Position numbers and translations under genes: made by a program. A stretch of 43,426 nt of DNA from Nakamurella sp. Lineage in GTDB: Bacteria > Actinomycetota > Actinomycetes > Mycobacteriales > Nakamurellaceae. Positions 7,012 to 28,918 of the stretch are shown here, piece by piece (the first letter of the stretch is position 1; the number at the start of each line of letters is the position of its first letter). The stretch is taken from positions 1-43,426 of the forward strand of contig JADGOY010000011.1 of the NCBI GenBank assembly GCA_017882715.1, in the 5' to 3' direction. Below the pieces are notes generated by a model that saw only the letters and a list, made by a program, of their open reading frames with translations, was not told where the DNA came from and did no database searches.

Positions 7012-7035
7012 TCTCTTCGTGCGACCCACGATGCG

Positions 7036-7404
7036 TGGAGGTGGCGGGAATTGAACCCGCGTCCAGCGTTGCTTCGTGAGGGCTTCTCCGGGCGCAGTCC
7101 GCTAGGTCCCTACTCGGCCCCACCAGTCTCGCGAACACGCTGGTGCGACAGGCCCAGTCGCTGTGAGTTGTCCCTCAGGATCCCGCGACCGGATCCTTCG
7201 GTAATCCCCCTGGCTGACGTCAGGCTCCGGGTCGGAGGAACACCCGGTCTGACGGAGTCGCTACTCGCTCAGGCGGCGAGGGCGACATCGCGCTGATTGA
7301 CATCGGCGCTTGATTTTTTGCGACGTATGGTTAACGAGATCGTCGTCGCCTTCCTCGGCCCGCTTCACCTCACTCGACATCCGCTGTCGAGACCGATCAC
7401 CCCC
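7036..7404 (-). ncRNA. ssrA: tmRNA (transfer-messenger RNA)
   Basis: A 369-nt tmRNA that rescues stalled ribosomes by acting as alanyl-tRNA and then as mRNA for a degradation tag. The ends form a tRNA-like acceptor stem: 5' GGGGGTG (down from 7404) pairs with 3' CACCTCC, discriminator A at 7036. The T arm reads GGGTTCAATTCCCGCC. The internal reading frame encodes ADVNQRDVALAA and a stop. CCA is not encoded. The smpB gene lies just upstream on the same strand, and a bidirectional terminator lies downstream. Confidence 0.96.
7269..7307 (-). other. tmRNA tag-peptide reading frame
   Basis: Thirteen codons within the tmRNA: resume codon GCC at 7305-7307, peptide ADVNQRDVALAA, stop TGA at 7269-7271. 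The ALAA end is the protease recognition signal. The QRD core resembles tags of other actinobacteria. Confidence 0.9.
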
Positions 7405-19212: not shown

Positions 19213-20523
19213 ATGGGGGTGGTGGCTGTGCGTCGAATAGCTTTCTCGGCCACCGCCATCCTGGCTGCCGTCCTGCTGGCCGCCTGTACGGGACCGACAA
19301 CCCCGATCGCTTCGTTGGCCGGACAGACCGGCCCGGTGTCCACGGTCGCGTCCACCCAGGCCACGGGAGGGGAGACGGTCCCGCCGTCGACCGCGTCCGT
19401 CACCCCCTCGAGCAGCGCAAAGCCCACGCCCACAGAGAAGCCCCCGGTTGCTGTGGTCAGCTCCAACCCGGCGTTCGGGGCCGGCGATCTGTCCCCGACA
19501 GGTCCACTCGCGATCAGCGTGGCCCAGGGCACGATCACCTCCCTGCAATTCACGGACCCGCAGGGCGAGCCGGTCAACGGGACCACCGCGCCCAACGGAT
19601 CGACGTGGACGCTCGCCGAGCCACTGGGTTACGGAAAGACCTACAAGATGACGGGCATCGCGACGGGCACCGACGGTAAGGCTGTCCCGTTCACCGGCAC
19701 GTTCAGCACAGTGACACCCGTCGACGAGGTCACCACCGGCATCTCCCCTGACGCCGGGACGGTGGTCGGGGTGGCCGCCCCCGTCATCGTCTCGTTCGGG
19801 TACGCACCGGCCGACCGCGCCCTCGTCGAGAGCCACGTGCGCGTCACCACCACTCCGCAGGTCGAAGGTGCGTGGGCGTGGATCAGACACGACGGACAGG
19901 ATCACCCGTCGCTGGACTGGCGTCCCAAGGACTACTGGCCCTCCGGTACGCAGGTGCACGTCGAATCCGACATGTACGGCCTCGATTTCGGCGGCGGCTA
20001 TTTCGGCGGCGACAACGCAGTCAGCGACTTCACCATCGGGCGCAACCAGGTGGTTCTGGCCGACGCGCAGGCCTTTCAGATCGTGGTTCAACGAGATGGT
20101 CAGACGGTGGCTACGTATCCGGCCTCCTTCGGCAGCGGCGACGACATCGGAGACCCGAACCGGGTCACCCGGTCCGGCATCCACGTGGTCAGCTCCAAGG
20201 AGGAAACCACCAAGATGAGCAACCCGGCCTACGGCTACACCGATGTCATCGAGCACTGGGCCGTGCGGATCAGCGACAACGGCGAGTTCATCCACCAGAA
20301 CCAGGGCACGGTGGACGACCAGGGCAATACGAATGTCAGCCACGGGTGCATCAACCTGTCGGCGGAAAACGCCGAGGAATACTTCAATTCCGCCATCTAC
20401 GGCGATCCCGTCGAGGTGACCGGCACCAGTGTCCCGCTGTCCTCCGACGACGGGGACCTCTACGACTGGGCCATTCCCTGGGATCAGTGGCTGACCATGT
20501 CCAGCGGCGCCGCCAACCACTGA
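19213..20523 (+). CDS. L,D-transpeptidase lipoprotein (Ldt type with Ig-like domains)
   Basis: A 436-aa exported lipoprotein that forms 3-3 cross-links in peptidoglycan. The lipobox is LLAAC, with Cys25 lipidated. A Thr/Ser/Pro-rich linker leads to two Ig-like domains (about 75-265), then the YkuD catalytic domain. The active site is SHGCINLS with H377 and C379. The C-terminal extension ends YDWAIPWDQWLTMSSG, as in mycobacterial LdtB-like enzymes. The start ATG 19213 is followed by several in-frame GTGs that could also serve. The flanking IS relic begins about 120 bp downstream. Confidence 0.94.
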   Translation: MGVVAVRRIAFSATAILAAVLLAACTGPTTPIASLAGQTGPVSTVASTQATGGETVPPSTASVTPSSSAKPTPTEKPPVAVVSSNPAFGAGDLSPTGPLAISVAQGTITSLQFTDPQGEPVNGTTAPNGSTWTLAEPLGYGKTYKMTGIATGTDGKAVPFTGTFSTVTPVDEVTTGISPDAGTVVGVAAPVIVSFGYAPADRALVESHVRVTTTPQVEGAWAWIRHDGQDHPSLDWRPKDYWPSGTQVHVESDMYGLDFGGGYFGGDNAVSDFTIGRNQVVLADAQAFQIVVQRDGQTVATYPASFGSGDDIGDPNRVTRSGIHVVSSKEETTKMSNPAYGYTDVIEHWAVRISDNGEFIHQNQGTVDDQGNTNVSHGCINLSAENAEEYFNSAIYGDPVEVTGTSVPLSSDDGDLYDWAIPWDQWLTMSSGAANH

Positions 20524-20639
20524 CCGTCCGTCCGGGGTCGAAGACTCAGGTGGCGTATGCGTCGTGGTGTCGTAGCCAGGCCATCATCGGGCTGTCGCTG
20601 CGCCCACGGACAGCGACTCGCGCCCGCCGGAGGACTATG

Positions 20640-21211
20640 GCGGGGTGAGGTGGTGTACTGCGTGGACGAGAAGTCGCAGGTCCAGACATTGACCCGGGCG
20701 CAGCCAGCGTTTCCATCATCTCCGACATGCCGGAGAAACGGAACTAGGACTCCGTCCGGCACCGCCCTACGAGTCCGGGGGCACCTCCCGCTCGCGGGGA
20801 GTCGCGGCGTTCAACACCGCCCACGGCACGGTGATCAGCAGCCTGCAGCGACGGCACCGTACCGATCGAGTTCGGCAAACTATTCCTGGCCAAGATCGAC
20901 TCCGCAGTCGCGGCAGACCTGGCCGTTCATCTGGTCTGCGACAACTACGGCACCCACAAGACCCCGGCGATCCGCAAATGGCTGGCCGACCACCCGCGGT
21001 TCGACATGCATTTCACCCCCACTCATTCCAGCTGGATCAACCAGGTCGAGCGGTGGTTCGCCCACATCGCAGACGAATTGATCCGCCGCGGCGACCACCG
21101 CTCCGTCCAGCCGTCCAGGTACTGGAAGCCGACATCCGCGCCTGCGTCAAAGCCTGGAACAACGACCCGAAGCCCTTCATCTGGACCAAAACCGCTGAGA
21201 AGATCGCCTGA
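20640..21211 (+). pseudogene. IS630-family transposase relic
   Basis: C-terminal part of an IS630-type DDE transposase, broken across frames. One frame gives EVVYCVDEKSQVQTLTRAQP. After shifts, others give AKIDSAVAADLAVHLVCDNYGTHKTPAIRKWL and FTPTHSSWINQVERWFAHIADELIRRG, and the last gives VLEADIRACVKAWNNDPKPFIWTKTAEKIA. The N-terminal DNA-binding half and the terminal inverted repeats are not seen. It marks the left edge of the accessory island and ends 40 bp from the convergent GTPase gene. Confidence 0.85.
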
Positions 21212-21250: not shown

Positions 21251-23731
21251 TTAAGCGATGCGGTCTTCAAACACCGCCGTGGGAGTCGGTGGGGTGTTCA
21301 GCCTCAGACCAAGACCAAGATTCTGCAAACCATCAACGGCTGCGCTGAGCTTTCGCGCACCGGCCTCGATAGCCGAGAGTCCAGCCGCAACTTGCGCTGC
21401 ACCGCCATCGAAATCGCCCGGCCAGACCTCTTGCCGGATGGGGCCGCAGAGCCGCACGTAGTCATATTCACTCTTGTCCGACTCCATCGCAGTGTCAAAG
21501 AACAGGTCGACGGCGGCAGCCAATGTGCGTGGCATGAGCCTCGCCTCGGCTAGCAGCGCCTTTTCCAGATCCGCGATGCAAGCATCGACATTACGGACGA
21601 TTTCGTCGGTTAATGTATTCGCGGTCCAACCACCGCTCACCGGGCTACCATGGGGCGCCCCCTGTGAGGGGGCACTGGACTGCGCCCACCAATCGTTTTC
21701 GGTCAGGAATCCGGAAACCGGGATTGGCGAGCCGAGCGCCGCACCAACCGAATCTGCGGCAACGCCCGCAGCCGCCTTTGCGGCGTCTTTCACAATACCT
21801 CCGGGGACGCCGCTGAATTGCGGTGAGTCGTAACGAATATTGCGCAGTATCGGCCGAGTGACCCGCAGGACGATGCTTCCGTAATTAACCTTGAGTTGCA
21901 GGAGTTCGCTGATTGCGGGCGATAAGAACTGCGCTCTTCTGGTCCGCGCCGTCAGCTCCAGTTGCGGCAAAGCATCCGGTCTGTTAGGAACGAGTTCGTC
22001 CGTCAAACGAACCCGGAGCTTTTCGGCTATTTCCTCCCAAAGTCGACGGACCGCGGCCTCAAGGGAGAGATCTATACGACCGAAAATCCTGGCGACCTCT
22101 GCGCGGGCACTGTTGTACTCGTTCTGCCTCACCTCGGGACCACGCACGGCAATTGCGTTGTGCAGCTCATCCAACCAGATCTGTCGACTACCCCGCCCGA
22201 AACCGCCGTTGATCCAAGCGCGTGCTTCCTCCGTCGCGGTTTTGATTCCCTGAGTCAGTTCGGCGTCGGTATCGCCTGCCGCCACACGACGATCATAGTC
22301 GTCACGAAGGTCTCGCAGTCCTCTCCCGAGTGCATCACGCAGTTTCTCGGCGCGATCCACAAGAAGCTGTTCTTGGTCGGGAAGACCGGCCTGCCAATTT
22401 TCGACTTCTTCCACAAGTCTGTCTGCCAGGATACGGAGGTCAGTGCTCACTCCGTTAACCACGTCCAGCGCGAGCCCAACTGCGGCCCGATCCATCTCCG
22501 CCAACCTTGTCGCCAGGTGCTCTAAAGCCGGATGCATGACGTTATCCATCGCACTCGTTGCCACACTCACGTCGGAGACAGCAACGCGGATTCCGCGGAG
22601 CTTGACCCTTTCCTTAATGGTGGACAGCGCATTCTTGAAAGCTTCCGGATGCTGGGAAACAAGATCCGGATTTATAATCACAATTACAAAATCGTTCAGC
22701 CCCACGCCGCCACGAGCGGCGTCCGCTGAGTCAAGTGTGTTGTCGTCTTCGGTGGTAAAGAATGCGTCCTTGGCTGTCGGCCGCTTGACCATCAGCAGTA
22801 GGTCGACTTCGTTCTTCAGCTGATTCAGGAACTGCTTGTCGACGTCGAGGCCGGCCTCGCCCGAACCTGGGAGATCGATCAGGCCCAGATCCCGGACATT
22901 CAGGTTGGGGAAGCGGTGCTCGATTCTCACGCTCTTTACTGCATGGTAAGGACGTGATTCCTCGGTAGATCCGGCGTCAAGGGGGTAGGCCACATATGGA
23001 CGCAAGTCGAACTGAGTCAGGTGCAGCGGTTCGGACCTGTGCAGCAGTCCCTCGTAGCCAGCGAACGTCGCCTGCGCGATCCGCAGCTTGTCCACGTAGC
23101 GTTGGTCGCCGTAGACCTTGGTGAGCGGTGGATAACGGTACCCGCGGAACTCAGCGGCAGTGGTCGGAACAGGGTCAAGGCCCGAGGCGTGGTGCAGACC
23201 CGTCAAGTATGAGTCTCGAAAGGACCCCCAATTGTGCAAATCCACGGTGGCGGTAAATTCGCCAGTAACATGATAGATTCGGCTGGGGGCTGCGGTTGTT
23301 GGGTTGTGCGCCGAGGATGGAATGACGCTTTCGGGGAGGCCCGTGATCGTCCGAAGAAGCGTGCTCTTCCCTGACTTAGTCGTGCCGACGACTCCCAGAT
23401 TGACCGTGTCGCGCTGGACGCGGTGTTGCACGGACGACACGAGGTCGCCGGCCTCTGCAAGGCGCCGTCGGAGATCCCCGCAGGAACCCATGTGTCCGCG
23501 TTCGCTTCCACTCAGCAGCGCAGATATCGAGTCCGCGAACTTTGTCTGATTTGATGTGCGATTACTTAGCGCGCGTACGGATCGCTCCGACTCTTCGAGG
23601 GCGCCGACCAGAGCTTCGAAATCGCTTTCCAGAGCGGTTTGAGCCGCGACCAATTGTTCGACAAAGCCGCGTTGGCTCCGCCGCCGATCGAGAGCCTTGG
23701 AAATTCGGCTCGGGATGTTATCAACAACCAC
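21251..23731 (-). CDS. Dynamin-like large GTPase
   Basis: An 826-aa protein. An N-terminal helical segment (1-105) precedes a GTPase domain: P-loop GTTKSGKS at 116-123, G3 LIDLPGSGE around 285-292, and a G4-position INPD at 353-356 in place of the usual T/NKxD. Long charged helices (about 430-640) form a likely stalk. A Gly/Ala-rich weakly hydrophobic patch (about 650-690) could be a membrane paddle. This order fits bacterial dynamin-like proteins, which remodel membranes; some act in phage defence. GTG start with GAGGAGG. It is last in the operon, 60 bp after the kinase gene. Base composition is lower in GC than the flanks. Confidence 0.78.
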   Translation of the reverse strand: MVVDNIPSRISKALDRRRSQRGFVEQLVAAQTALESDFEALVGALEESERSVRALSNRTSNQTKFADSISALLSGSERGHMGSCGDLRRRLAEAGDLVSSVQHRVQRDTVNLGVVGTTKSGKSTLLRTITGLPESVIPSSAHNPTTAAPSRIYHVTGEFTATVDLHNWGSFRDSYLTGLHHASGLDPVPTTAAEFRGYRYPPLTKVYGDQRYVDKLRIAQATFAGYEGLLHRSEPLHLTQFDLRPYVAYPLDAGSTEESRPYHAVKSVRIEHRFPNLNVRDLGLIDLPGSGEAGLDVDKQFLNQLKNEVDLLLMVKRPTAKDAFFTTEDDNTLDSADAARGGVGLNDFVIVIINPDLVSQHPEAFKNALSTIKERVKLRGIRVAVSDVSVATSAMDNVMHPALEHLATRLAEMDRAAVGLALDVVNGVSTDLRILADRLVEEVENWQAGLPDQEQLLVDRAEKLRDALGRGLRDLRDDYDRRVAAGDTDAELTQGIKTATEEARAWINGGFGRGSRQIWLDELHNAIAVRGPEVRQNEYNSARAEVARIFGRIDLSLEAAVRRLWEEIAEKLRVRLTDELVPNRPDALPQLELTARTRRAQFLSPAISELLQLKVNYGSIVLRVTRPILRNIRYDSPQFSGVPGGIVKDAAKAAAGVAADSVGAALGSPIPVSGFLTENDWWAQSSAPSQGAPHGSPVSGGWTANTLTDEIVRNVDACIADLEKALLAEARLMPRTLAAAVDLFFDTAMESDKSEYDYVRLCGPIRQEVWPGDFDGGAAQVAAGLSAIEAGARKLSAAVDGLQNLGLGLRLNTPPTPTAVFEDRIA

Positions 23732-23791
23732 GGCGATTCCTCCTCATGGCTGGTGCTCTGAAATGGGGCTGACGTGAATTCGTGTGCAGCC

Positions 23792-25075
23792 TCATCGACG
23801 TCGACCCTTGTATCTGCGACTGCTCATGACAGTCAACGTCACCAGGAGCACGACGGCGAAGGTTGCGAAGAACACAGCCGTTTCGTTAGCTCGCTTGGCT
23901 GTGCTCGCCACGGCTCCCGTGACTACCCCTGCCACCACCAGCGCAGTTAGCAATGCGGCGGTGATTGTCCACCACACTGATGATTGTGGATGATCGGGTA
24001 TCGGCGGCCCTTTTCGTTGGTTCGATTGTTGGCGGTCGGGTACCGGTCCAGTCCCGGTCCACCAAGCGCCGGGCGGTGACTGCACGCCGGGCTGCGCGCT
24101 AGTGACGTGCGGCGGACCCGACGGGATCCGCTTCTGTTCCTCGCGCGCCGGGGTCGCGACCGGCGGAACCCACCAGTTCGATTCTGTCAGGAGCGGCTCG
24201 AGCGGGCCTGGGGGTGCCCAATTCGGCTCACAAAAGGACTTGAGACGTGTTGTCAACTCCGAGAGCCTTGAATCTCGGACCATCTCCACCCGATTCCACG
24301 CCGAGCTCTGGAAGGGATACCGGAAGTCATCTCTCCGGAACAACAAGTTCTCGCCGTTGTAGAGTTCGTACCAATGCTGGGTGCTCTTGGAGAGCGCCAC
24401 GAGCGATGTATAGATAACCATCCCTGAGAAGGTGTCCATCCATGGACCCCACGGCCGGTCGATCCGCTGGTAGTTTGGGTGCCCCCATTCGTGGGGTGCC
24501 GGCTCGCCAGCGAGCGGTTGGACCCAAACACCATCGAAGTCGACGAGCCGGATATCACCGGACGGGCCAACAAGAACGTTTCCGTGCTGGAGATCACCGT
24601 GCGCGAAACCTGAGAATTGGAGTTGGCCGACGACAGCCCGCCACGACTCAGCCAGCTTTGCGAGCGCTATAGCGTCGCTCATTTGAACCAGGTTTGCTAC
24701 GTACTTGTCCAGAGTCAGCCCGCGAACCCATTGCATTCGGATCATCGGCAGCGGCCGACCGCCGACCGTTATCGCTTCGTCGATCCATTCTGCAGTTGCC
24801 AAAGAATGCGTCAGGCTCCCGCCGGTGAGATAGGGGTGGATAGCGGTGTAACGGCCCCTGCTCGAGGCGTCGTCGCGGGTAAAGAACCGCAGAGCCTGTT
24901 CGACGCCGTTGACCTGCGCCTTGAATACCACGGCCGTGCTACCAGGAATTCCGAGCGGCATTCCGAGCTTTGTGTGTTCGAACTGCGCATTCTTGAAATC
25001 CCTGATGTTGAACGCGCGATCAGGATTCTGTAACGCAATTGCGTAGTCACCTGCACTCGGAAATGATGTGTTCAT
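23792..25075 (-). CDS. Membrane-anchored protein kinase of the vWA/PP2C/kinase triad
   Basis: A 427-aa protein. Residues about 30-290 form a kinase domain: glycine-rich-like loop LGIPGSTAVV, then ALRFFTRD in the beta-3 position, where Arg63 replaces the usual Lys. The catalytic loop is HGDLQHGN at 159-166, and the metal loop is DFDG at 179-182. A proline-rich linker leads to two C-terminal transmembrane helices (about 368-391 and 398-418). The sequence belongs to the kinase family found beside vWA and PP2C genes in TerY-P-type systems. Its ATG overlaps the PP2C stop (ATGA), so translation is coupled. Confidence 0.85.
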   Translation of the reverse strand: MNTSFPSAGDYAIALQNPDRAFNIRDFKNAQFEHTKLGMPLGIPGSTAVVFKAQVNGVEQALRFFTRDDASSRGRYTAIHPYLTGGSLTHSLATAEWIDEAITVGGRPLPMIRMQWVRGLTLDKYVANLVQMSDAIALAKLAESWRAVVGQLQFSGFAHGDLQHGNVLVGPSGDIRLVDFDGVWVQPLAGEPAPHEWGHPNYQRIDRPWGPWMDTFSGMVIYTSLVALSKSTQHWYELYNGENLLFRRDDFRYPFQSSAWNRVEMVRDSRLSELTTRLKSFCEPNWAPPGPLEPLLTESNWWVPPVATPAREEQKRIPSGPPHVTSAQPGVQSPPGAWWTGTGPVPDRQQSNQRKGPPIPDHPQSSVWWTITAALLTALVVAGVVTGAVASTAKRANETAVFFATFAVVLLVTLTVMSSRRYKGRRR

Positions 25076-25869
25076 GGGAACACAACCAGTTCGGCGGCCG
25101 TCGTCATGTCGATATTTATGCGCAAGAGTGTGACATCGTCATTCTCCAGTTCCGCCGAATTGCGCAGATCACTGACCAGCCGGCGGAACACAAACCAGTT
25201 ATCCAGGTCCCCCAACAATCTCCAAAGCTTCCGATCGTCCCCGTTCGATCGCGACAGCATCCAATGCGCCAACGCATCTGTCGCCATGAACAACATGTCA
25301 CCCGGTATCAGTTGTCCTGCAGCGAATCGGAGGTCGCGTGTCATCTGACTTAGCCGGACGGGCAATGTGTAGGCCAGGTCAGGTGCTAAACCGAACTCCG
25401 ACGGCCGAATCGGTGGGAAATGGGTGACCAATTCATCTCCGCGAACATGGAAAAGTATCGAATCGCCTAGGGCGACCGCATTCCAGGACAACCCCGATGA
25501 GCGCCTTACGAGTTCACAGCCGAGTAGCGTTGCGTAGGAACCCTCAGCGCGGAATTTGCGTTCGGACCAGGGGTTCGCAAAACTCGTTGGCGCAATGGCC
25601 TTCCAGTGTTCTTGTAGAAGTTCGAACCACGCCCTCATTGCGGCAGGAGCGAGCGCAGGACGTTCGCTCTCGCTGATGAAGGATGCGACTAGTATCCGCA
25701 CCCATTTCAACGAATCATATGCCGCTGTCGCACCATCGGAGATAACAAAGCGCGGTGCCGACCCGGTGCTCGGGTCACCGAAGTGACCCGCTGCCCCGTC
25801 CTCCCATTCCTCTGGAGCGTTGCCTGCTTTGTGTTCTGCAAAGGCCACAGCCCTGAGCGACGTCATCAT
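25072..25869 (-). CDS. PP2C-family protein phosphatase
   Basis: A 265-aa metal-dependent Ser/Thr phosphatase. Metal-binding acidic motifs are in order: EDGA (23-26), FVISDGAT (D45-G46), ALGDS (G135-D136), MATDALA (D198) and ENDDVTLL (D244-D245). All key Asp positions look intact, so the enzyme should be active. It most likely reverses phosphorylation by the downstream kinase. It starts five bases after the vWA stop codon and its own stop overlaps the kinase start. Confidence 0.88.
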   Translation of the reverse strand: MMTSLRAVAFAEHKAGNAPEEWEDGAAGHFGDPSTGSAPRFVISDGATAAYDSLKWVRILVASFISESERPALAPAAMRAWFELLQEHWKAIAPTSFANPWSERKFRAEGSYATLLGCELVRRSSGLSWNAVALGDSILFHVRGDELVTHFPPIRPSEFGLAPDLAYTLPVRLSQMTRDLRFAAGQLIPGDMLFMATDALAHWMLSRSNGDDRKLWRLLGDLDNWFVFRRLVSDLRNSAELENDDVTLLRINIDMTTAAELVVFP

Positions 25870-25874
25870 GACTC

Positions 25875-26744
25875 CTACCAGTCGTTGCCGATTCGATCAG
25901 CACCACTTGTGAGTCCTGTCCCAATCTTCAAAGATTTGACCAGGGCCATCAGATCGGCATTGAACACAAGTCCGCGAGCACCTTCGGATACCCGAATCCC
26001 TTCTTGTGCGGCACTGGCGATCATTCGCGGAGGCAACAGACTGCTCGCCTCAAACAGCAGTGGACCTGGATCAGGCAGTTTCCCCGACGTTGAAGGGTAA
26101 TAGACCGGCGATTGTGCCGATTTTGAAAGGAATACGTTGAGGAGGAGTGTAGCACCGTCGGCGGTACTAATTCCTGTCAGCCGTTGAGCCCACCCAATCA
26201 AATCCGTGCCTTTGAACGGGCTGTCCGACACCCACCCATCGGTCATGTTTATGACAATCGGGGGAAAGGAGTTTGGATGCTTCAGCGACCAGTTCTTGAC
26301 GTGCGCACCCACCTCCGCGATCGCTGCGCACATAGGTGTCTGATAACCATGGGCAGGTTTGACCCATATCGGTACGCGAGCGACCGCACCAGGGTCACCG
26401 ATGACTGACTGCTCTGCCAATTCGAGTGGGTTGTCCGCAAGTACGTTGAGTGGTACCAACGTCTGGCCCGCGAGCCCCCCCGAGAATGCTGGCTCGACTC
26501 CTTCGCCGAATGCGACAGGACGTACCCCATATCCCCATACTCCGACGTCACAATAGTTGCGGACGTCGTCCGGACCCTTTGTGGCCATCGCGACAAGTTC
26601 GTATAGTAGTTTGTTCAGGGCCTGCGCGGACCCTTGCGCTAATGAGATGCCCGAACCCTTCCAGGCGTCTTTCATGGAATCTGAGCGATCGATCAAAAAG
26701 ACAATACAACCAGGGGTTTCGCGAGTGAAAAGCTGGCTGTACAT
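25875..26744 (-). CDS. von Willebrand factor A domain protein (TerY-like)
   Basis: A 289-aa cytosolic vWA protein. The MIDAS motif is complete: DRSDS at 19-23, a conserved Thr in GYQTPMCAAI and Asp in NMTDGW. Such domains bind a divalent cation and a partner acidic residue, and in TerY-P-type systems they are thought to scaffold the kinase and phosphatase. The C-terminal zinc ribbon of many TerY proteins is missing here; a zinc ribbon is present in the neighbouring upstream protein. Its start codon directly abuts the stop codon of that gene. Confidence 0.87.
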   Translation of the reverse strand: MYSQLFTRETPGCIVFLIDRSDSMKDAWKGSGISLAQGSAQALNKLLYELVAMATKGPDDVRNYCDVGVWGYGVRPVAFGEGVEPAFSGGLAGQTLVPLNVLADNPLELAEQSVIGDPGAVARVPIWVKPAHGYQTPMCAAIAEVGAHVKNWSLKHPNSFPPIVINMTDGWVSDSPFKGTDLIGWAQRLTGISTADGATLLLNVFLSKSAQSPVYYPSTSGKLPDPGPLLFEASSLLPPRMIASAAQEGIRVSEGARGLVFNADLMALVKSLKIGTGLTSGADRIGNDW

Positions 26745-27377
26745 TTACGTCATCCTTTCACTACGACTGTTGCGGGTTCGATCTACTTTGAGTCCCGGCC
26801 AGGACGTTCCCGGCGTCCAGGACCAGAAGTGGCCGCAATCCACACACCTCAGCGAGTAGCCATTGGAATGAGGGTGGGATACGTCAAGCCGAAAGTTGCC
26901 GCACGCCGGGCACTGCGCAATCTGCGATCGTTGCTTGTACCGGTCGAGATCGACGGGTACGTACTCGTGGTCCGTTTGCGACTGTTGGCTCAGATCCTCA
27001 TGCGGCTGATCCCACCATGAGATATCTGGTCGACTCTGGCTATTTCCGACGAGAACGGCCAAGCCGTGGTCGAGAATAGCGTCCTCGGGCACGTCATCCC
27101 CAGGGCTTGCCACGTGCGCCTTCACGTCGCTTCCTCGTGCCTTGGGTATTTCGTGAGATGGGTCCAGTGCGGCCGGTAGTCGGGCAAGTGATTTTGGCCA
27201 TCCGACGATTGAGAGCGCGGCAGCGGTCGCGGCAGCGCTGACGACCAGCACCACAACAGACAGGAAGAAGGGATCACCTCGCCATGCGAGGCCGCCGGCG
27301 AGGCAGCCTAGAGCGGCACCGAGATACGTGCCGGCGGCGTTCGCCAATTGGCTCGCGCTGAGGGACCAAGATCTCAC
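26745..27377 (-). CDS. Membrane protein with C-terminal zinc ribbon, function unknown
   Basis: A 210-aa protein with two close transmembrane helices near the N-terminus (about 11-30 and 34-55) and a hydrophilic linker. The C-terminal zinc ribbon reads CPACGNF and CVDCGHFW, with 22 residues between the two Cys pairs. I recognise no family. The start chosen is GTG 27375-27377, which overlaps the preceding gene's TGA as GTGA and has GGGAG upstream. A longer frame to 27494 would overlap that gene by 121 bp. It may supply in trans the zinc ribbon that the vWA protein lacks (inference). Confidence 0.72.
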   Translation of the reverse strand: MRSWSLSASQLANAAGTYLGAALGCLAGGLAWRGDPFFLSVVVLVVSAAATAAALSIVGWPKSLARLPAALDPSHEIPKARGSDVKAHVASPGDDVPEDAILDHGLAVLVGNSQSRPDISWWDQPHEDLSQQSQTDHEYVPVDLDRYKQRSQIAQCPACGNFRLDVSHPHSNGYSLRCVDCGHFWSWTPGTSWPGLKVDRTRNSRSERMT

Positions 27378-27907
27378 CCGCCACTCCCGTCGTCTCGTCC
27401 GGGCACGAATTCGATATTGGCGGTCTGCCCGGACGTATACGCCACGCACGAATAGCCTGAGATCTCCGTGGTCGCTGGGCTTGTCACGAACCATCCATCA
27501 GGTAGTCTCACGCAGACAAAGGCCGCTCGCTGTGCGCCCTTTTGGCGATATTCGCCGGACGATGGGTCGACGGCGCCACTCTCGATTGCGTTCTTGCTGG
27601 CGTCCAATATCTGGATAGATGTTGCGGCCGCGTCCAGGGTCGGCGCGAGCAACACACTGATCCGGCCCGCGGATAGGTCGGAGTCCGTGACCACGGATGA
27701 TAGGGATTCCGTGGTCCTGGAGATGGTGTTCGTGGCGCTTGCAGATGGGGGCAAATCGGTAGCGGACTGCGGCGTCGGCTGCTGGGCACCGGCTTCCGCA
27801 GTGACACTTTCCTTGCCAACCAGGACGCCTGCCGCTATCACGACGAGAAACGCGATCGTCAATGCGTAGATAGGCCCAAGAGCGGGGTGGCGAAATGATT
27901 CGGCCAA
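27374..27907 (-). CDS. Anchored extracytoplasmic protein, first gene of the operon
   Basis: A 177-aa protein with one transmembrane helix (about 13-31) and a Thr/Ser/Pro-rich linker. A small outer domain (about 75-170) holds two Cys (VCVRLPDGWF and GYSCVAYTSG) that could form a disulfide. No family is recognised. The start is TTG 27905-27907, with a G-rich stretch upstream. As the only operon member predicted to lie mostly outside the membrane, it is a candidate signal receptor (inference). Confidence 0.65.
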   Translation of the reverse strand: MAESFRHPALGPIYALTIAFLVVIAAGVLVGKESVTAEAGAQQPTPQSATDLPPSASATNTISRTTESLSSVVTDSDLSAGRISVLLAPTLDAAATSIQILDASKNAIESGAVDPSSGEYRQKGAQRAAFVCVRLPDGWFVTSPATTEISGYSCVAYTSGQTANIEFVPGRDDGSGG

Positions 27908-28918
27908 TTGCTCGCCCCCCAGCAGCCAGGATCAGGTGGGTCAGTTGCTTGCGTCGCTGAGCGCTTAACCGAACCGAGCAATGCTATCGTTCACCCGATC
28001 AGCTCAATGGGCGGAATGAGTCTCGCGTGCACCGATTCTAGGGGAAATGCGGTCCGTGCGCTAGGCAGTTCTCCTCAACGCTGGGCAGTTCTCCTAGAGT
28101 TGGGGTCCACCAGGGGTCCACCGGGTGCACCCTTGGGTGTGCTCGCTGCGCCCGCCAGGCCGCCTCGACCGCCCTTCACGTCGCGACGACGCCGCAGCCA
28201 GGGGGCTCCATCGCCGCTTTGGCGGCATTCGCCCAACACGGCGAGAGCGGCCAACGCCGTCCCTGTCCGTCCGCGACCTCCACGACAGGCCACCTCGACT
28301 ATTTGCCGTCACACCGCCGCCTCACGCGTAGGACCCGAGTCGATCCGCGGTTGACCGCGCTGTACGCCGACCCGGAGTACACGGTGCGGCTGCGCCGACA
28401 CCGGATTCCGCGTCGGCACCAACTGGCGCAAACCGCTGACCGCTTGCCGACCCCACCACAAAATGACCGCGGGATTCTGATTGCACGCCGTGCGCAGATC
28501 CGGACGGCGTTCCTTGCTGTCCTCGGCGATCCGTGGCAGCCCCAGGCCCCGAACCAGTGCGCGCCCTCCTGGAAACCGCCGTCGATCACATCGACCCATC
28601 ATCGACCTGGAACGGTGCACGCCTGCGGACCGAAGCGCGGTCAACGTTGTGATCGACCTGCATCGCAAGCACAGGGCGTGGACGGCGCCCGGACGTGTGG
28701 CACGCGATGACCCAGGCCGGGCGACCAGCCACTCATCCCGTGATACAACCTTCGGATCATCCATCGCGCTCTCCCTTTGCGGGTCTCGACCTGATCCAGA
28801 CCTGATCCAGACCGCCCGCGCGCAATTCCTCGGATGCTGCCGATTCTTTGCCACCCGGTCTTTGCCACTCACGCGGACCCGCGAAAAGGCTCACACCCGA
28901 CAGTCGATCGAGCGGAAG
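27908..28918. other. Decayed region, no intact gene
   Basis: About 1 kb between the operon and the ZIP gene. Near 27908-28130 lies the operon promoter region, with short direct repeats (GGCAGTTCTCCT at about 28064 and 28084, and GGTCCACC twice). From 28340 to 28700 on the plus strand, protein-like pieces appear in shifting frames (LTALYADPEYTVRLRRHRIP, and LLETAVDHIDPSSTWNGARL ending in a stop). These are relics of genes I cannot name. A DUF899 5' fragment follows at 28717-28764. Confidence 0.6.
28717..28764 (-). pseudogene. 5' fragment of a DUF899 family gene
   Basis: ATG 28762-28764, with GGGAG upstream, begins MDDPKVVSRDEWLVAR, closely matching the N-terminus of DUF899 (thioredoxin-like) proteins. 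The match ends after 16 codons and the downstream frame is unrelated, so only the promoter-proximal start of the gene survives. Confidence 0.55.

Follow-up and report, generated by a model that had tools for sequence, protein, structure and literature searches.

We analyzed a 43,426-nucleotide contig from Nakamurella sp. (GCA_017882715.1, JADGOY010000011.1; hereafter the window), in which six minus-strand genes at positions 21251–27907 had been proposed, from the sequence alone, to form one membrane-bound phospho-signaling system ending in a dynamin-like GTPase. All six open reading frames (ORFs) were confirmed (Table 1), as were the tight junctions claimed between them: the genes for the anchored protein Outer and the membrane zinc-ribbon protein ZnR share a GTGA overlap, the ZnR stop codon lies immediately before the vWA ATG, 5 bp separate the vWA and PP2C genes, the PP2C and kinase genes share an ATGA overlap, and a 60-bp gap precedes the GTPase gene, whose GTG start is preceded by AGGAGG. 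For ZnR, the GTG at 27377 (~210 aa) is the most likely start, rather than the ATG at 27494 given in the ORF list, because the extra N-terminal residues of the longer version have no counterpart in relatives.

Table 1. Genes of the six-gene operon and the evidence for their assignment
Product	Position	Strand	Features	Basis
Outer	27374..27907	−	Signal-anchored, transmembrane (TM) helix 8–28, disordered linker, CnaB-like beta-sandwich outside (predicted)	ORF, TM prediction, AlphaFold2 (AF2), Foldseek
ZnR	26745..27377	−	N-terminal membrane region and C-terminal zinc ribbon (CPACG...CVDCG)	Pfam, aligned relatives
vWA protein	25875..26744	−	TerY family, intact MIDAS	PADLOC, identity to relatives, tree
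PP2C-family phosphatase	25072..25869	−		PADLOC PP2C match, motifs
Ser/Thr kinase-like protein	23792..25075	−	Two C-terminal TM helices	PADLOC STK_OB, alignment, motif table, TM prediction
Dynamin-like GTPase	21251..23731	−	826 aa; variable (proposed output) gene	Pfam Dynamin_N, alignment with homologues

The core of the operon is a TerY-P-type triad, as had been predicted. TerY-like vWA, PP2C and STK genes lie next to one another, the arrangement by which PADLOC and Gao et al. recognize TerY-P, and match the PADLOC profiles TerY (E = 9.6e-52), PP2C (9.8e-29) and STK_OB (4.9e-41). The vWA protein is 51–53% identical to nine relatives, and its metal-ion-dependent adhesion site (MIDAS) is intact as claimed, with D19, S21, S23, T136 and D169 invariant across ten sequences. 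The phosphatase has no Pfam match; it contains SDG, GDS, TDA and DDV, which we take to be PP2C motifs. The kinase carries HGDLQHGN and DFD motifs, and its STK_OB match spans residues 4–283, ending at profile position 281 of 562 and so covering the first half only. Instead of the OB-fold or zinc ribbon of TerY-P kinases, the window kinase ends in a linker rich in proline and a pair of TM segments, which hydropathy prediction places at residues 371–389 and 399–417, in agreement with the two helices originally proposed.

For Outer, prediction gives a single TM helix, then a disordered linker and a beta-sandwich that resembles CnaB domains, all at modest scores: the AF2 model has a mean pLDDT (predicted local distance difference test) of 63.5, rising to ~80 for residues 81–160, and Foldseek matches it to UafA (6.3e-5, TM-score 0.38) and CnaB2 (6.4e-4, 0.28), TM-scores that are low when taken by query length. 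ZnR matches Pfam Zn_ribbon_5 at 3.4e-4, under the cut-off of that family.

A conserved five-gene module in actinomycetes

To place the operon among its relatives, we compared loci from several collections. A TerY search of 394 genomes of the class matched 21 genomes, including the window's own, and yielded 26 loci besides the window, all of whose neighborhoods were compared, some of them ending at contig ends. Ten carry a ZnR gene ahead of a window-type vWA gene and 16 do not. The vWA alignment, used in a pattern-limited scan of genome_contigs, picked out 15 loci: eight from Frankiaceae that coincide with eight of these ten (the remaining two, L053 and L060, belong to the same family), one from Pseudonocardia and six from distant planctomycetes. 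Among 397 genomes drawn from the order, 15 further vWA loci came to light, five of them of the window type, a patchy distribution that corresponds to 5 of the 396 other genomes drawn. Module loci besides the window number 16: ten from Frankiaceae, one from Pseudonocardia and five from further actinomycetes.

The vWA, PP2C and kinase genes are present at all 16, the kinase being cut by the contig end in L058 and L069; the vWA and PP2C genes of L082 and the vWA gene of L069 are broken pieces as read and were kept unrepaired. ZnR likewise occurs at all 16, weakly in L105 (E = 0.0032; missed at 1e-3), and an Outer-like protein was recognized at E ≤ 0.005 in nine. In L102 and L105 the place of Outer is taken by a short ORF whose N-terminus is hydrophobic, and the L057 contig ends before that position. 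Sequence comparison defines a conserved module of Outer, ZnR, vWA, PP2C and kinase and groups the two additional membrane proteins with the triad, as the original prediction had it. In a vWA tree of 47 rows (L082 left out), the 16 membrane-type rows, the window included, make up one clade with support of 100/100, and the window vWA is a deep, long branch.

A search with a ZnR profile points the same way: six of 298 genomes matched, namely the source genome and five of the 297 others. Four of these five matches (E ≤ 7e-8) are immediate neighbors of a TerY vWA gene; G938 and G1011, two of the four genomes, had been rows of the profile, and one locus (G895/L106) falls outside the membrane-type vWA clade. 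The fifth match, a weak one (8e-5), is not beside a TerY vWA gene. In one relative (L101:6098-8725), the kinase lacks the pair of C-terminal TM segments and has a single hydrophobic segment, after which comes a DUF6777 domain (E = 3.9e-54).

Lineage-specific neighbors and the dynamin-like GTPase

Comparison across the module loci indicates that the neighboring gene differs by lineage, being an STPK-FHA-ABC transporter, a TIR protein, a patatin-like phospholipase or, in the window, the dynamin-like GTPase. In all nine Frankiaceae and Pseudonocardia loci with downstream sequence, the kinase is directly followed by a kinase-FHA-ABC-ABC2 (STPK-FHA-ABC)-like protein, whose full domain set was seen by Pfam in all four proteins scanned; in L057 and L082 the downstream gene shows its kinase start only. 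Upstream of the module, 10/10 loci of these groups with sequence there encode a histidine kinase together with a LuxR-type response regulator (Pfam on one locus).

TIR genes adjoin the module in four of the five order-level loci (L102, L103, L104 and L105; all TIR_2 by Pfam). They lie on the same strand in L102 and L105, 23 and 6 bp ahead of the short anchored ORF, and on the opposite strand, right after the kinase, in L103 and L104. All four proteins have C-terminal hydrophobic segments; those of L102 and L105 have an IFITM/CD225-like C-terminus, with CD225 above the Pfam cut-off in L102 only. The fifth locus, L101, has a patatin resembling phospholipase effectors of CBASS (cyclic oligonucleotide-based antiphage signaling systems) together with a TPR-S protein, and L105 additionally encodes a TPR-S protein and a second TIR protein. 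Protein searches for TIR, with L102 and L105 as the source of the queries and L103 and L104 as the independent finds, matched four of the five order-level loci and none of the 26 other TerY loci (G895/L106 included), 11 Frankiaceae-type loci or six GTPase loci, in stretches that differ in length from 5 to 20 kb. The original prediction had asked whether homologous loci lie in defense islands; defense-type neighbors are seen in relatives, in the form of TIR, patatin and TPR-S proteins. What unites the neighbors is, in most cases, an apparent link to the membrane (dynamin, phospholipase, TIR with TM ends, ABC transporter).

The GTPase carries the P-loop GTTKSGKST and a DLPG motif and matches Pfam Dynamin_N at 2.3e-6, its 28.2 bits exceeding the cut-off of 27 by about one bit; it and five aligned homologues, six sequences in all, match Dynamin_N at E ≤ 0.01. 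For the helical stalk or neck and the membrane-binding tip of dynamins, a PDB profile search was weak, with dynamin-related protein 1A as the best match (E = 0.0013) and translation factors, via the P-loop, making up most of the rest.

The pairing of this GTPase with the module is not a fixed one. A protein search found the dynamin gene at none of the 16 module loci, 14 of which have sequence after the kinase (less than 1 kb in L057 and L082), and a GTPase profile search of 50 TerY-type loci found it absent from module loci while recovering all six control loci, three of which were rows of the profile. Conversely, TerY-P genes lie near the GTPase homologue at none of eight loci examined; the L123 contig stops just past the homologue, and the L122 genome has a TerY-P locus ~1 Mb away from it. 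We therefore rejected a fixed six-gene system, the GTPase standing beside the module at no other locus examined. The original prediction had treated the six genes as one system and named, as evidence that would speak against this, homologues of the GTPase and the two membrane proteins lying mostly away from the triad; such separation is found for the GTPase.

Homologues of the GTPase usually have a different companion. A DO-GTPase2-like gene lies near them in five of six loci tested, a set that includes the locus which supplied the query (L007 and L008 were left out); the exception is Nostoc L006. Pfam DO-GTPase2 is below its cut-off for the partner in L013 and gives nothing for that in L005. 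This gene pair recurs in actinobacteria (L013, L014, L005 on a Streptomyces plasmid, L122 and L123) and may be a separate conflict system. A search without a positive control found no match to the DO-GTPase2-like protein in the window's own genome, which is 88.6% complete, and a similarly uncontrolled search found the GTPase in 0/11 genomes behind the module and planctomycete loci. Across a draw of the phylum the GTPase was detected in 1/396 genomes, its own, a weak negative given that two candidates were scored per genome among the matches listed; the GTPase profile found 5/397 genomes of the order draw, its own included, again with two candidates scored per genome. In viral_contigs, pattern scans with the GTPase alignment (A2) and with alignment A1 turned up no relatives. 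On plasmids, ZnR was not found, vWA and kinase gave two records each, from the same two cyanobacterial plasmids, where the triad occurs without a GTPase match, and the GTPase gave ten records, four of which were examined.

The operon is real, rare and probably acquired; it is not part of the core genome, and its base composition is unusual, as the original prediction had noted. Its G+C content is 0.590, against 0.658–0.700 in 113 overlapping segments of the same length elsewhere in the window, and is low in every gene (0.556–0.614); G+C at third codon positions is 0.58–0.69 in the operon genes and 0.84–0.86 in four neighbor genes. Because all six genes share this low G+C, the GTPase probably arrived together with the other five. 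The GTPase occurs in 3/61 relative genomes, its own included, and in none of 16 other genomes of the genus, in which the vWA and ZnR profiles likewise found no match.

The IS630 relic reported near the operon (20557–21211) was not confirmed: the region, which adjoins the 3′ end of the operon, holds two fragment ORFs with no Pfam match. Apparently decayed ORFs, also without a Pfam match, lie just upstream at 28219–28872, and an L,D-transpeptidase-like gene at 19213–20523 has seven matches in its own genome, some of them pieces. An empty insertion site could not be shown in other genomes of the genus, since the ZIP gene is present in only three of the 16 and the L,D-transpeptidase family is multicopy. 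Farther away, the window encodes a tmRNA at 7035–7404 on the minus strand, with tag ADVNQRDVALAA.

A proposed membrane-tethered switch and its known counterparts

With moderate confidence, we read the locus as a TerY-P-like phospho-switch that is tethered to the membrane, is of the biological-conflict type and has an output that can be exchanged, in this case the dynamin-like GTPase; it looks like a modular defense or membrane-stress system, as judged from domain content and gene neighborhoods. We infer a sequence of sensing, phosphorylation, membrane action and defense, in which a disturbance of the cell surface or membrane, such as envelope damage or lysis by phage, would be reported by the Outer domain and ZnR. 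The kinase, bound to the membrane, and PP2C would determine a phospho-state, and the vWA protein, via its MIDAS, would read or scaffold that state and bind its target. A change of phospho-state might then release or recruit the GTPase as output, which could assemble on the membrane and either seal or stabilize it or delay lysis and so limit spread, in the manner of DynA in B. subtilis. More tentatively, the five-gene module may represent an undescribed input and switch cassette that takes alternative membrane-linked effectors, and the window the first bacterial dynamin under a phosphorylation switch controlling membrane integrity or lysis when phages attack. With a separable membrane-bound TerY-P switch, whose core is constant and whose neighbors vary, one could ask what input TerY-P senses and which output it controls, and a dynamin output, if true, would link phospho-signaling to membrane repair or the control of lysis in bacteria.

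Several observations weigh against this reading. The usual beta-3 lysine of the kinase is an arginine (ALRFF), as in the 14 membrane-type kinases compared (L058 and L069 left out); other TerY-P kinases have K or R at this position. The protein is best called kinase-like, its catalytic activity being putative. TM ends are not uniform among the kinases of the module, with two segments in seven of 11 rows, one in three and none in L082. The single-sequence AF2 model of the GTPase is unusable (pLDDT 35.7), and its pairing with the module is known from one instance. As for the neighbors, the TIR genes of L103 and L104 and the patatin gene of L101 lie on the opposite strand and so need not share an operon with the module, the patatin has no predicted TM segment, and a protein search gave no TIR match in the window. 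The STPK query also produced weaker partial matches away from the module (in the window, L069, L102 and L103), which we read as general kinase or ABC paralogues.

The histidine kinase and exporter-type protein tied to the Frankiaceae module fit envelope homeostasis as well as defense, and it is possible, if doubtful, that the locus serves envelope-stress or cell-wall signaling instead: the CnaB-like outer domain would sense the wall and the phospho-relay would adjust an envelope machine, the ABC exporter in Frankiaceae and a dynamin for membrane repair in the window. Such a role accords with the placement of the Frankiaceae/Pseudonocardia module between histidine kinase/response regulator genes and the STPK-FHA-ABC2 protein, and with the resemblance of the Outer domain to surface CnaB domains; it sits poorly with the TIR, TPR-S and patatin neighbors of other lineages, which are typical conflict effectors, and with the patchiness of the module in the order. 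It is improbable that the GTPase is a mere passenger, a dynamin gene with no relation to the module that came to lie downstream of it and is simply co-transcribed. The single instance of the pairing, the 60-bp gap, the GTPase's own ribosome-binding site and the DO-GTPase2-like partner, usual at its homologues and not found in this genome, speak for a passenger, yet the gene lies on the same strand with similarly low G+C and occupies, after the kinase, the position of the STPK-FHA-ABC gene in Frankiaceae relatives. A classic Ter or metal-stress TerY-P unit, to which the matching TerY, PP2C and STK profiles would conform, is very hard to credit, as the window kinase lacks an OB or zinc-ribbon C-terminus and no ter gene was noticed in neighborhood gene lists or selected Pfam scans, none of which was a search aimed at ter genes.

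The switch reading finds its closest parallels in systems already described. Like the TerY-P defense triad of Gao et al. 2020 (PMC7699616, PMC11090510), which protects Pseudomonas against phages (PMC10889362), the window has TerY vWA, PP2C and kinase genes in the same order; it differs in a kinase that ends in TM helices rather than an OB-fold, in its two added membrane proteins and in its variable neighbors. In actinobacterial GAP1-N2/DO-GTPase systems, a TM-fused kinase with PP2C and a lone vWA protein forms the third theme (Kaur et al. 2020, PMC7159879), and the window shares with it this active-type kinase-TM, PP2C and standalone vWA set, coupled to a GTPase in a membrane setting. The planctomycete relatives carry GAP1-N2 itself (by Pfam in one locus, and in 5/6 by a search with that protein). 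The window GTPase, however, is of the dynamin family, a word the main text of PMC7159879 does not use, and neither a DO-GTPase2-like gene nor a GAP1 gene was found, the six operon proteins giving no GAP1 or DO-GTPase Pfam match at E ≤ 0.1. In type II and III-A CoCoNuT systems (PMC11090510), TerY-P is similarly an add-on to a GTPase-bearing system and a zinc ribbon is present, but there the zinc ribbon is fused to the kinase and the GTPase is of McrB type, and in the window no nuclease was seen. DynA, which delays phage lysis in B. subtilis (PMC8844932), provides a bacterial dynamin acting at the membrane, as proposed for the window output, although it is two-headed and is described in the passages concerned without mention of a phospho-module. 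The combination of a TerY-P-like triad with a dynamin-like GTPase was not found in searches of open-licence PubMed Central (PMC) papers, one of which, PMC10855318, lists dynamin-like and TerY-P as separate systems. The triad itself is already known, and the membrane module with its dynamin GTPase is a variant within the TerY-P-like conflict systems.

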